Source: an uncultured bacterium | Lineage (GTDB): Bacteria > Cyanobacteriota > Vampirovibrionia > Gastranaerophilales > Gastranaerophilaceae | Direction of reading: 5' to 3' | Length of the DNA: 64,000 nt | NCBI GenBank assembly: GCA_947073645.1 | Contig: CAMTMK010000002.1 | Location: 1 to 64,000 of the forward strand | Part shown: positions 17,193-37,752 of the stretch, piece by piece | Layout of the letters: each line of letters starts with the position of its first letter | Numbering within the stretch: the stretch's first letter is position 1 | Translations under genes and position numbers: made by a program | The notes under the pieces: generated by a model | What the model was told of the DNA's origin: nothing | Databases searched by the model: none | The model's input: the letters and a program-made list of their open reading frames with translations, nothing else

Positions 17193-17945
17193 ATGAAAAA
17201 CCATGAAACATTATTAAAAACCTTCCGGGGGGGGGGCACTCGTAGCAAGCGTAGCCGCTTGACCCGCCACATTGGATTTTGTAAAAATTTTAAATGTGCA
17301 TTTACGTTAGCAGAGGTTTTGGTTACACTTGGAATTATTGGTGTTGTGTCTGCAATGACCTTGCCGACACTTGTTAAAAACCATCAGCGTCAGGTTTATG
17401 TAACCCAGTTGCAGAAGGTCGTAAATGAGTTGACTCAGGCAGCAGAGAGGGCAATTACTGATAATAATGCAGTTTCACTTTCTGAAACTGAATATAGAGA
17501 TCCTCAAGATGCTAAATTGTTAACTAGATATTTAAAAGTTACAAAAAATTGTTCTACAAATAGAGATAAATGCTTTGCTAGTGAATATAAAACTCTTACA
17601 GGTGAAGTTTTTTCTGGTTGGTATTGTGGCGGAAATTATTCTGCATCAGTAATTTTAGCAAGCGGGGCTTCTGTTTGTATATCGAGAAGTATGACTGATG
17701 GTCGTTATTTAGACGGAAGTATAAGACATGGTAATTCTATTTTATATATGGATGTTAATGGGCTGCAGGGTCCTAATATATTAGGCAGAGACTTGTTTTA
17801 TGCAGAGTTATATAGTGATGGTGTAGTTGGAGAAAGTCATAGTGGAGATTTATCTCAAGCTGACTGGTGTTTGAATAATGGAATGGGATATGGAGTAGGG
17901 TGTTTTTCTAAAATTGTTAGTGACGGTTGGAAAATGGATTATTAA
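17193..17945 (+). CDS. Type IV prepilin-like protein with an in-frame G10 tract (phase ON)
   Basis: A 250-residue prepilin-like protein. The class III signal AFTLAEVLVTLGIIGVVSAMT starts only near residue 36, after an unusually long basic leader. The leader contains a G10 tract (17227-17236, in frame here) and an in-frame copy of the dispersed palindromic element (17241-17290, encoding SKRSRLTRHIGFCKN). The globular part shows Cys pairs, MDVNGLQGPNILGRD and a C-terminal SDGWKM, matching the frameshifted paralogue at 2445. Prepilins of this type are processed by PilD-like peptidase and assembled by type IV pilus or type II secretion machinery. GGAGCAGG precedes the ATG. Confidence 0.85.
   Translation: MKNHETLLKTFRGGGTRSKRSRLTRHIGFCKNFKCAFTLAEVLVTLGIIGVVSAMTLPTLVKNHQRQVYVTQLQKVVNELTQAAERAITDNNAVSLSETEYRDPQDAKLLTRYLKVTKNCSTNRDKCFASEYKTLTGEVFSGWYCGGNYSASVILASGASVCISRSMTDGRYLDGSIRHGNSILYMDVNGLQGPNILGRDLFYAELYSDGVVGESHSGDLSQADWCLNNGMGYGVGCFSKIVSDGWKMDY
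17227..17236 (+). repeat. G10 homopolymer tract (putative contingency tract)
   Basis: Ten Gs in the same C-G10-CA context as 2469-2478. Here the reading frame continues into the prepilin. Loss or gain of one G would truncate it. Confidence 0.75.
17241..17290 (+). repeat. Palindromic dispersed element, copy B, read in frame
   Basis: AAGCG-TAGC-CGCTT hairpin followed by CCACATTGGATTTTGTAAAA, closely matching copy E (35067-35108). It lies within the prepilin coding leader. Confidence 0.6.
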
Positions 17946-18969: not shown

Positions 18970-19234
18970 TTTTTACCCTCTCTGACGATTTTGGTCGAAT
19001 TTTGTATTTATTGGTCAGTTGCTCGCTTTTGCTCGCTCCCATATTTTCTCCTTACATACTAATTATACCAGAAACAAATTATTATAACTTAATATTAAAT
19101 TGACTAAAAATCATGATTATCATACCGTAATAGATATAAGGAAACGGAGTGAATATCTCCGACTGCTGCCGCAGCCGTAAAAGTCGGAATACTTGTTGCA
19201 TTATCTACGTGCAGAATGGATATGTGAGGATTTA
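18970..19234. other. Intergenic region with divergent promoters and riboswitch
   Basis: The left part is the trpS leader, which carries the short direct repeat GCGAGC-AAAA-GCGAGC on the minus strand. The right part holds the cobalamin riboswitch-like leader of the cluster at 19235. Confidence 0.5.
19115..19225 (+). promoter_or_regulatory. Cobalamin riboswitch-like leader ahead of an unknown three-gene cluster
   Basis: It contains GGAGTGAATATCTCC, then CTG, and GCAGCCGTAAAAGTCGGAAT. This last 20-base core is identical in the leader of nrdD (37655-37752). These correspond to the conserved cobalamin-riboswitch segments GGTGAAA..TCC, CTG..CCGCARCCGTAA and GTCGGAAT. The element ends about 10 bases before the ATG at 19235, next to TGAGGA, so translational control is likely. 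Confidence 0.75.
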
Positions 19235-21931: not shown

Positions 21932-23014
21932 ATGGGAATGGCAGCGTCACAAGCTAGATTTTTAGGTCTGACAGCCAGAAAAAACAATGTTGAATTTGAA
22001 GGTCAACAGATTAACCAACAAAGAACAACATTGTCTAACCAGTCCGCAAATTACTACAATAATTTGCTCGGAATGGCTGTACCTGTACCGCCGTCTGTCG
22101 ACGATTACACAAAAACTGTGTATACTTTCGAAGACGGAGCATTAACAAACCAGATTACAGCAATGATGTCTCAGCCTGACGGTAATTATACTATCAGCTA
22201 TTTGAGACAATGGACAGACGATTTTTCTGTAGTTTCAGCTAATACAAGTATTGTTAATTCAAATGCTGATAAAACTGTATTTAAAGTCGGGGCAGTTGAA
22301 TTAAGAGAAATGTCTACACGTACTGATGCACAAATTGAAGCTATGGACAAAACTCAATTGGATGCATTCAGAGGAACTGATGAGTATTTAAAAACTTTAT
22401 CTGACGACCAATTGAAAAGTCTGCTTAAAGAGGAAAATGCATATATTGAACTTCTCAAAAATAAATACGGCAAAGACAGTGAATATATGGTTCGCTATAT
22501 TAAAAATACAACAACAGGCGAATACGAACCTAATTTCTACAAAAAAACAGATTTGACAGGTGCAAATTATGATGACAACGGCAATTCATTGTCAAACATT
22601 AACTGCTACAAAATTGGCAGTGAAACAAAATCTGAGGAAGTTAAAGCTTTAAAAGGTTGCAGAGTTGAAAAAGACAGCTCAGGCAGATACATAAATATCA
22701 AAATTCCTGCATACGATGCTAATGGAAATCCTGATATTACAAAAGGTATTACTTATGCCTTAACAACTTCTACAGCAACTGATCAGGCAGCATATGAAGA
22801 TGCCATGAACCAGTATGAGTATGAAAAATACGAATACGATCAAGCAATTCAAGAAATTAATGCCAAGATTGAAATCGTTCAATCACAAGATAAAAACCTT
22901 GAATTGAGATTGAAACAGCTTGATACTGAGCAAAAAGCAATTTCAACCGAAATCGATGCGGTTTCACAAGTTATCCAAAAGAATACCGAGTCATCCTTTA
23001 AAACCTTTGGATAA
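21932..23014 (+). CDS. Orphan coiled-coil protein, 360 aa
   Basis: Function not known. The N-terminus (MGMAASQARFLGLTARKNNV) continues with EFEGQQINQQRTTLSNQSAN and looks like a conserved helical domain. A similarly built N-terminus (SQLQFEQTLVMSRANYITKQ) occurs in the 108-residue protein at 30961. The middle is polar and Asp/Thr-rich. The C-terminal 75 residues form a predicted coiled coil (YEYDQAIQEINAKIEIVQSQ, NLELRLKQLDTEQKAISTEI). There is no signal peptide. Such architecture is reminiscent of flagellar or secreted structural proteins, but no specific family is supported. GAAAGGAAG precedes the ATG, and an intrinsic terminator follows. Confidence 0.8.
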   Translation: MGMAASQARFLGLTARKNNVEFEGQQINQQRTTLSNQSANYYNNLLGMAVPVPPSVDDYTKTVYTFEDGALTNQITAMMSQPDGNYTISYLRQWTDDFSVVSANTSIVNSNADKTVFKVGAVELREMSTRTDAQIEAMDKTQLDAFRGTDEYLKTLSDDQLKSLLKEENAYIELLKNKYGKDSEYMVRYIKNTTTGEYEPNFYKKTDLTGANYDDNGNSLSNINCYKIGSETKSEEVKALKGCRVEKDSSGRYINIKIPAYDANGNPDITKGITYALTTSTATDQAAYEDAMNQYEYEKYEYDQAIQEINAKIEIVQSQDKNLELRLKQLDTEQKAISTEIDAVSQVIQKNTESSFKTFG

Positions 23015-23057
23015 TAAATAAAATTTTTTTCCTTTCCCTTTTTCCTATTGATTTTCT

Positions 23058-23089
23058 AACGACGAGCACAAGCAAGTCGTTTTTTTTTT
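23058..23089 (+). terminator. Intrinsic terminator of the gene at 21932
   Basis: AACGAC/GTCGTT stem with a run of nine or more Ts. A second perfect hairpin, GCCGAC-GAA-GTCGGC, follows at 23090-23104. Confidence 0.8.
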
Positions 23090-23143
23090 GCCGACGAAGT
23101 CGGCTTTCACATTCTGGATAAATATTGTAAGTTAATAGTTTTC

Positions 23144-23172
23144 TGGACAAAAAAACGGATTTATTATAAAAT
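23144..23172 (+). promoter_or_regulatory. Promoter of the small hydrophobic peptide transcript
   Basis: TGGACA (23144-23149), 17-base spacer, TAAAAT (23167-23172). The predicted mRNA would start near 23179. Confidence 0.6.
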
Positions 23173-23247
23173 AGGCTCTGTAGGGCTTGCACAATGCAAC
23201 TTCGTTACACACAATTTTCAGAGAAATTGAACGAAAGGAGGCAAGCT

Positions 23248-23322
23248 ATGGTTGACAAAATAATAATGCTACTAATTGCATTTGACTTACTCTTAGTAGC
23301 ATTAAAATTGTTAAAACCGTAG
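23248..23322 (+). CDS. 24-residue single-helix hydrophobic peptide (type I toxin-like)
   Basis: It starts at ATG 23248 after a near-perfect GAAAGGAGG ribosome binding site and stops at TAG 23320. The peptide starts MVDK, is then almost all Leu, Ile, Val and Ala with one Asp in mid-helix, and ends KLLKP, so it is long enough to cross a membrane once. The leader contains TGTAGGGC, the exact complement of GCCCTACA after the gene (23367-23374), and the 3' region forms a long stem (AGCTCTTAAG/CTTAGGAGCT). This 5'-3' closure and peptide style resemble type I toxin mRNAs such as hok and tisB. A Leu-rich attenuator peptide is an alternative. Confidence 0.55.
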   Translation: MVDKIIMLLIAFDLLLVALKLLKP

Positions 23323-23374
23323 GGTACAGAGAGCTCTTAAGGCTAGCTTAACTCTTAGGAGCTTCGCCCTACAC
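23318..23374 (+). ncRNA. Structured 3' region of the small peptide mRNA
   Basis: GTAGGG...CCCTAC outer stem with an inner 10-bp stem (AGCTCTTAAG/CTTAGGAGCT, one G-U pair). The 3' strand GCCCTACA can instead pair with TGTAGGGC at the 5' end of the transcript (around 23179-23186). Confidence 0.5.
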
Positions 23375-23419
23375 CTTTATTATTTACGATTTTGTTAGTT
23401 TTGTCAAGTGTAGTAGGTT

Positions 23420-24274
23420 ATGCAGAAAAAATATCTTAAAATTTTAAATATTGTCCAAAAAGAAATAGAGCAGGTTTTGGAGCAAATGTCGGAGGGGATA
23501 GAGGTTCAAGAACCTTTAAAATCAAAACTTTTCGCGCTTCTTAATGCTCCTTCAAAACATATCAGACCTCTAATTTCTATTTTATATTTGAAGGCAATCG
23601 ATGCCGAAATCACTGCCGAGCAGATTTTGTATCAGTCTGCAATAGAACTCGTTCACAATGCTTCGCTTATCCACGATGATGTAATCGATGAAAGTAATGC
23701 TCGTCGCAGTGTTCCGACGCTTAACAGTGAATTTGGTAATAAACTTGCTGTGATTTCAGGAGATTTTTTACTTTCGATTGCGTTAGATAAAGTTATTCAA
23801 ATTGGCGAAATCAGCCTTATTAAAATGTTTTCAGATACTTTAGCTGTAATGAGCGAGGGAGAAATTACCCAGTATTTTAAGAAGTTTCAAATTCCTACAA
23901 TTGATGAATACATAAAAAAATCAGCACAAAAAACCGCAAAACTATTCGAAACAGCGCTTTGCGGAAGTCTGCTGATTGCAAAATCCGATAAAAACGGATT
24001 AGAGTTTGCACGAAACTTTGGGATAGCTTTTCAAATTCGAGATGATTTGATTAATTGTAAAACAACAAATTCCGATATAAAAGACGGAGTTTATACCGCG
24101 CCTGTGATATTTTCGGGCGGAGTGCAAATATCTTCCGATGCTATTGAAAAAACGCAAGGTTTGTTAAATAATTACATTAATAATGCGCTAAATTCTTTAA
24201 AAGATATTGGCGAAAATGAATATAAACTTGCACTGTTAGAGCTTTTGGAGCTTATGAGATATGAACAAAATTAA
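23420..24274 (+). CDS. Polyprenyl diphosphate synthase-like protein
   Basis: A 284-residue trans-isoprenyl diphosphate synthase homologue that condenses IPP with allylic diphosphates. The first Asp-rich motif is intact (HDDVIDESNARR, about residues 84-95), as are KHIRPLI and the GDFLLSIAL helix. The second motif, normally DDxxD, reads RDDLINCK near residue 212, with Asn for the last Asp. Because this Asp helps bind magnesium-IPP, activity or specificity may differ. Product length is not predictable by eye. The stop overlaps lepB by 14 bases. Confidence 0.85.
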   Translation: MQKKYLKILNIVQKEIEQVLEQMSEGIEVQEPLKSKLFALLNAPSKHIRPLISILYLKAIDAEITAEQILYQSAIELVHNASLIHDDVIDESNARRSVPTLNSEFGNKLAVISGDFLLSIALDKVIQIGEISLIKMFSDTLAVMSEGEITQYFKKFQIPTIDEYIKKSAQKTAKLFETALCGSLLIAKSDKNGLEFARNFGIAFQIRDDLINCKTTNSDIKDGVYTAPVIFSGGVQISSDAIEKTQGLLNNYINNALNSLKDIGENEYKLALLELLELMRYEQN

Positions 24275-37654: not shown

Positions 37655-37752
37655 GATACTTTCGTAAGGAAAGCATGGGTGAAATTCCCACACTGGACCG
37701 CAGCCGTAAAAGTCGGAATGCTTATGAGAGTTAATGTTACCACGGAAATCTG
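37655..37752 (+). promoter_or_regulatory. Cobalamin riboswitch controlling nrdDG
   Basis: It has GGAAAGCATGGGTGAAATTC, CCACACTGG, and GCAGCCGTAAAAGTCGGAAT with GCTT closing against AAGC. These are the conserved cobalamin-aptamer segments. It ends next to the ribosome binding site TGGGAG before ATG 37765, suggesting translational repression by cobalamin. This fits a strategy in which B12-independent NrdD is made only when B12 (and thus a B12-dependent reductase) is limiting. Confidence 0.85.

Follow-up and report, generated by a model that had tools for sequence, protein, structure and literature searches.

Does the intergenic gap at 23015–23419 of the window, the 64,000-nt stretch of an uncultured Gastranaerophilaceae genome analyzed here (contig CAMTMK010000002.1), encode a toxin that is kept silent by its own mRNA and by an antisense RNA? 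The earlier note on this DNA had placed a promoter, a Shine-Dalgarno sequence (SD), a 24-codon hydrophobic open reading frame (ORF) and a 3′ stem in a gap of about 400 bases and had suggested a type I toxin-antitoxin-like locus. All of these elements are present, and the whole module is confined to the 405 nt that separate an ORF ending at 23014 from one that starts at 23420. Judged from its sequence, the module carries what marks a type I system: a small, hydrophobic and predicted membrane-spanning ORF with an SD, and an antisense unit that has its own putative promoter and is complementary to the mRNA. No named type I family appears to match it by peptide or RNA. We consider it highly probable that the module represents a new chromosomal type I family, in which a tail-to-tail antisense RNA like that of TxpA/RatA is combined with a self-closed mRNA like those of AapA and hok. 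This interpretation is strengthened because the antisense promoter is conserved, the antisense terminator is embedded in the codons of the ORF, the conserved peptides are hydrophobic, and paralogs, tandem arrays, presence and absence at the same site and a phage-borne copy were found.

A putative antisense unit facing a predicted self-closed mRNA

BLAST searches in relatives found diverged copies of the module, some of them within the window's own genome. A covariance model (R1) was built from 26 aligned copies over the mRNA only, without the antisense promoter, and 109 loci were extracted with it; a DNA pattern search was used to seek further copies. The earlier note had identified no clear antisense promoter. 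One is present on the minus strand, just outside the segment considered there (Table 1), and matches of at least 11/12 occur in 102 of the 109 loci, a count inflated by shared ancestry, compared with a mean of 7.2/12 in shuffled sequences. It is the best-conserved element of the module, and its conservation provides largely independent evidence because R1 excludes the promoter region. The −10 box and the U-rich end of the toxin mRNA overlap, and the promoter position places the antisense +1 at about 23372, directly facing the mRNA 3′ end. The antisense promoter pattern TTGACAAA...TAAATAATA has seven exact matches in the genome, four in modules and three before pilin-like genes. Matches that at first seemed generic turned out to be the promoters of pilin-like genes that contain poly-C tracts (L042–L044 and relatives; see the last section).

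The putative terminator of the antisense RNA lies inside the toxin-like ORF. A terminator score of at least 18 was obtained on the antisense strand for all 99 distinct ORFs; the sense strand reached it in 34% and synonymous recodings in 8%. The energy of the in-ORF hairpin relative to synonymous codons has a z of −5.4 at the window locus (median −4.1). Counts of U in the 10 nt following the hairpin gave a weak signal because the outer pairs of the hairpin had absorbed the U-tract; the explicit terminator score resolved the question. ATA encodes Ile5 and Ile6 in 143 of 152 cases, compared with 26 of the 188 Ile codons of ten neighboring genes, a choice that maximizes U in the predicted antisense tail. 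The toxin codons thus seem to double as code for the terminator of the antitoxin RNA.

The predicted mRNA, whose start is expected at about 23178–23179, folds with an energy of −62.2 kcal/mol, compared with −42.4 ± 3.8 in dinucleotide shuffles (z −5.2; 0/200 as low). The RNAalifold consensus contains a helix that closes the two ends, the base of the hairpin that holds the SD and a start-stop helix, in which the start codon pairs with the stop region. Double-change cells numbered 67 versus 22.8 in shuffled controls in a smaller MAFFT alignment, and double changes 473 versus 142 among 122 distinct rows aligned to the covariance model, an alignment that leans toward the model for that reason. In the closing helix 85–93% of cells are paired, with compensatory changes such as GTAGGAC/TTCCTAC and GCAGGGT/ACCCTGC; at the base of the SD hairpin 98% are paired, and two of the three pairs there have 42 and 49 double changes; and in the start-stop helix 93.5% are paired, with compensatory GC/AU at the last pair. 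When the 5′ tag of one locus was matched with the 3′ tag of another, the excess of pairing was only modest because the core GGG/CCC is common to all loci, and covariation judged pair by pair is the appropriate test. The fold, comprising the closing helix, SD hairpin, start-stop helix and in-ORF hairpin, is not due to chance, as it is retained through compensatory changes among homologous loci.

How the fold would hide the ribosome site differs from what had been proposed. The earlier note had seen exact complementarity between TGTAGGGC and GCCCTACA and a hok-like closure that hides the site; the complementarity is confirmed, the ends close and the closing helix covaries, but in the folding model occlusion would stem from the local 5′ hairpin, for the SD, and from the start-codon/stop-region pairing. 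Over 102 loci the AUG has a median unpaired probability of 0.02 in the full-length RNA and the SD one of 0.25 (partition-function folding). Trimming at least 14 nt from the mRNA 3′ end freed neither the AUG nor the SD appreciably in the thermodynamic folding model, so that a hok-style opening by removal of the 3′ tail is not borne out; the AUG was more accessible (unpaired probability 0.54) only before the stop region is transcribed. TAGG is found at the stop codon in 77 of 102 loci, and GUAGGG at 23319–23324 could be an alternative partner for the 3′ CCCUAC, making a two-partner switch possible. Within the 5′ hairpin, at about 23207–23226, CACAC (in a bulge; 90 of 102 loci) and AAGRA (100 of 102) are nearly invariant and unpaired in the model; they may form a standby site, a kissing site or a site for a protein.

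We propose the following mechanism. A weak promoter would drive an mRNA of ~200 nt encoding a 24-residue, single-helix membrane peptide, and translation would be poor and leakage low because the mRNA ends pair, the start codon pairs with the stop region and the SD lies in the 5′ hairpin. A stronger promoter on the opposite strand, just past the mRNA 3′ end, would produce an antisense RNA of ~117 nt that traverses the 3′ untranslated region (UTR) and the greater part of the ORF, ending at the hairpin encoded by the toxin codons. Acting as the antitoxin, this RNA would pair with the mRNA in its 3′ portion, leading to double-strand cleavage by RNase III, to locking, or to both. Loss of the antisense supply, the presumed trigger, would allow the peptide to be made, to insert into the membrane and to depolarize it.

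Table 1. Elements of the module in the window and the features assigned to them
Feature	Position	Strand	Details
Antisense promoter, TTGACA-17-AATAAT	23407–23379	−	11/12 match
Hairpin inside the toxin-like ORF, read as intrinsic terminator of the antisense RNA	23264–23304	−	U-rich tail TTATTTTGTCA at 23263–23253
Predicted antisense RNA, ~117 nt	23256–23372	−	From promoter and terminator; would span most of the toxin-like ORF as well as the 3′ UTR
Toxin mRNA promoter, TGGACA-17-TAAAAT	23144–23172	+	10/12 sigma-70-type match
5′ tag TGTAGGGC	23179–23186	+	5′ arm of closing helix; exact complement of 23366–23373
5′ hairpin partly sequestering the SD	23200–23241	+	CGTT 23203–23206 pairs with AACG 23230–23233 below CAATTT/AAATTG stem
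SD AAAGGAGG	23234–23241	+	6 nt before ATG
Toxin-like ORF MVDKIIMLLIAFDLLLVALKLLKP	23248–23322	+	24 codons and TAG stop
CUAUGG, including start codon	23246–23251	+	5′ arm of start-stop helix
CCGUAG, including stop codon	23317–23322	+	3′ arm of start-stop helix; overlaps GUAGGG 23319–23324
3′ stem-loop in mRNA 3′ UTR	about 23332–23364	+	From RNA folding; candidate mRNA terminator together with the U-rich stretch that follows
3′ tag GCCCTACA	23366–23373	+	3′ arm of closing helix

Peptides, copies and mobility

The sense-strand signals are also retained among the homologous loci. The sense promoter scores 9.2/12 on average over the 109 loci versus 7.2 in shuffled controls, AAGGAGG is present as the SD in 87 of 102 loci, and an ORF of 20–32 codons behind the SD was called automatically in 102 of the 109. 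In the other seven, inspection revealed an ORF in most, with a GTG start, a damaged SD and a lost ATG in one case each. The peptides are mostly 20–29 residues long, the majority having 21–26, with a mean GRAVY of 1.8 and a net charge mostly of +1 to +4. Entropy is lowest at codon position 2 (0.36 versus 0.75 and 0.67), and the +1 frame is open in none of the 102 loci. At least five peptide clusters (49, 33, 4, 4 and 2 members, plus singletons) are carried on one RNA chassis. Pfam and NCBIfam searches with the peptides, including for TxpA/BsrG-family peptides, gave nothing above chance at E ≤ 10, 24-residue queries being of low sensitivity, and an Rfam search of the locus likewise gave nothing above chance.

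R1 detects nine loci in the window's genome and has matches in 24 of the 33 genomes of its genus, to which G012 and G021 also belong, and in 101 of the 231 good genomes sampled from the order Gastranaerophilales, representing 25 genera. In the class and phylum samples, full-length matches were confined to the window's own family apart from G050, where the match lies on a single small contig in a metagenome-assembled genome (MAG) of 66% completeness, and a match in G408, a large genome from a different family in the phylum, which was rejected as just an AT-rich palindrome. The named carriers are uncultured Candidatus Gastranaerophilales/Melainabacteria MAGs, several from animal guts. The MAG JAMPCZ01 (L174, L175, L177), labeled Muribaculaceae, holds about ten module matches and is probably mislabeled or mis-binned. 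L158, labeled Pseudomonadales and one of 41 genome matches, carries no module.

The module is gained and lost at single sites. A polyprenyl synthetase gene, which starts downstream at 23420, is present in all 33 genomes of the genus, and the module precedes it at only two of the 30 sites examined, those of the window's genome and G012. The nearest relative, with flanks 84.9–92.4% identical, has a clean empty site of about 40 nt versus about 324 in the window. Tandem arrays combine peptide clusters, with three copies in L112 and pairs in L119 and L120. A search of plasmid and phage DNA gave no match; an integrase-bearing IMG/VR contig carries a phage-borne copy (L198:6179–6389), which adjoins an N-acetylmuramoyl-L-alanine amidase gene. 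In a truncated or chimeric copy (L021, G012:C35) the 5′ half and the toxin start are replaced, but its antisense promoter and terminator persist; it is possibly an orphan antitoxin.

Alternative explanations and known systems

Several points weigh against the type I reading. Toxicity, expression and antitoxin action of the module are predictions. The folding model offers no route from the closed mRNA to a translatable form, as the AUG stays paired after 3′ trimming. The dN/dS ratio (0.28/0.38) is just moderately below 1, where it is probably kept by the constraint that the RNA hairpin places on synonymous sites. The database searches establish no homology to a proven toxin, except for one ShoB-like peptide cluster (below) that is not the window's own.

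One rival is a small regulated membrane peptide under antisense control that is not a toxin, such as a regulator of a membrane protein or a stress peptide. Small hydrophobic peptides can act as regulators, and toxicity is predicted only. Interchangeable peptide clusters, a strong antisense promoter and a multilayer translational lock are toxin-like traits, however, as are the occurrence in tandem arrays, the patchy pattern of gain and loss, carriage by a prophage and the ShoB-like cluster, and we judge a non-toxic function to be improbable. Less probable still is a non-coding RNA element, either repeat- or MITE-like or a pair of small RNAs, in which the ORF is incidental. The module has multiple copies and moves among sites, and the RNA fold is retained across loci with differing peptides. 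The earlier note had linked a fold conserved without its peptide to a non-coding RNA or leader; the fold does outlive the exact peptide, yet each intact locus keeps an ORF for a hydrophobic helix of ~21–29 residues. The ORF and SD in nearly all 109 loci, the closed +1 frame and the retention of hydrophobic residues and second codon positions argue against an incidental ORF; moreover, the copies are diverged rather than identical, and no flanking repeats were noticed at the empty site of the nearest relative. A cis-acting leader or attenuator of the polyprenyl synthetase gene, directly downstream on the same strand, was rejected as extremely improbable, because relatives have that gene behind empty sites and paralogs of the module adjoin other genes.

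The type I reading can be compared with established systems. In Bacillus subtilis, several of the TxpA/RatA, BsrG/SR4, BsrE/SR5 and YonT/SR6 pairs are located on prophages (PMC6562991), like the phage-borne copy described here, and antisense pairing in TxpA/RatA and BsrG/SR4 leads to RNase III decay (PMC6562991). The predicted antisense RNA (+1 at about 23372, terminator at 23264–23304) would overlap the toxin 3′ end tail to tail, as in the TxpA/RatA type. Unlike the B. subtilis systems, the module has ~24-residue peptides that match no Pfam or NCBIfam family, an mRNA closed end to end and a start codon paired with the stop region, and it occurs in an unrelated phylum.

Long-distance 5′–3′ pairing of the mRNA kept by covariation, and multi-copy chromosomal loci, are shared with AapA/IsoA of Helicobacter (PMC6733600) and hok/Sok. 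The module differs from both in that the SD lies outside the terminal helix, the start codon stays paired after 3′ trimming in the thermodynamic model, and the antisense RNA starts beyond the 3′ end and covers that end and the ORF rather than the 5′ leader region. The activation step of hok and AapA (PMC6733600) is not reproduced by equilibrium folding because 3′ trimming leaves the accessibility of the AUG and SD almost unchanged. No peptide similarity was found either; the Hok family, at ~50 residues versus 24 here, gave no family match.

One peptide cluster of the module aligns with E. coli K-12 ShoB over 22 residues with a score of 62 (z about 8 versus shuffles), compared with a maximum of 47 among 269 hydrophobic E. 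coli windows and at most 47 for shuffled ShoB. The peptide of the locus at 23248, which belongs to a different cluster, scores 26 against ShoB. OhsC is encoded apart from shoB, and R1 finds nothing around shoB–ohsC, indicating that the RNA chassis is not common to ShoB. DinQ of E. coli (MIDKAIIVLGALIALL), whose AgrB is also encoded apart from it, resembles MVDKIIMLLLALVALV of the window's cluster with a score of 44, which is not significant (3/269 controls as high). It is an even question whether one RNA cassette, with two promoters, a closed mRNA, a start-stop helix and an in-ORF antisense terminator, carries interchangeable ~24-residue toxins whose codons each also spell the antitoxin terminator as an overlapping code, a ShoB-like peptide recurring on an unrelated chassis by transfer or convergence.

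Type I systems have been described from Proteobacteria, Firmicutes and Tenericutes, together with one recent candidate from Microcystis (PMC12390103), MsoT1/MsoA1, which is reported as the first candidate in Cyanobacteria. MsoT1, as described there, is a 63-residue toxin with two predicted membrane helices in a photosynthetic host, versus a single helix of ~24 residues here, and a closed mRNA does not figure in the sections of that report considered here (PMC12390103). No type I system for Gastranaerophilales was found described in the open literature. The family described here numbers as many as about ten copies in a single genome of this gut lineage of non-photosynthetic cyanobacterial relatives and is missed by current protein and RNA libraries. 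More than 100 aligned loci and at least five peptide clusters form a dense natural series for testing how toxin mRNAs stay silent, which also bears on antitoxin terminators coded within toxins and on the repeated origin of such peptides.

Other features of the window

Poly-C tracts are located on the minus strand of the window at 2469–2478 and 17227–17236, and the 1.7-Mb genome G000 contains 131 overlapping 9-mer poly-C/G matches, corresponding to dozens of tracts. The sampled tracts (L042, L043 and L044; relatives L012, L013, L017, L020 and L033–L038) are mostly situated a few codons into genes with type IV pilin-like N-termini (FTLAEVLITLG), which suggests massive phase variation of pilin-like genes. 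The ORF at 17193–17945 carries an N_methyl domain (PF07963). Two AdoCbl-II riboswitch aptamers are present in the window at 19124–19202 and 37658–37731.
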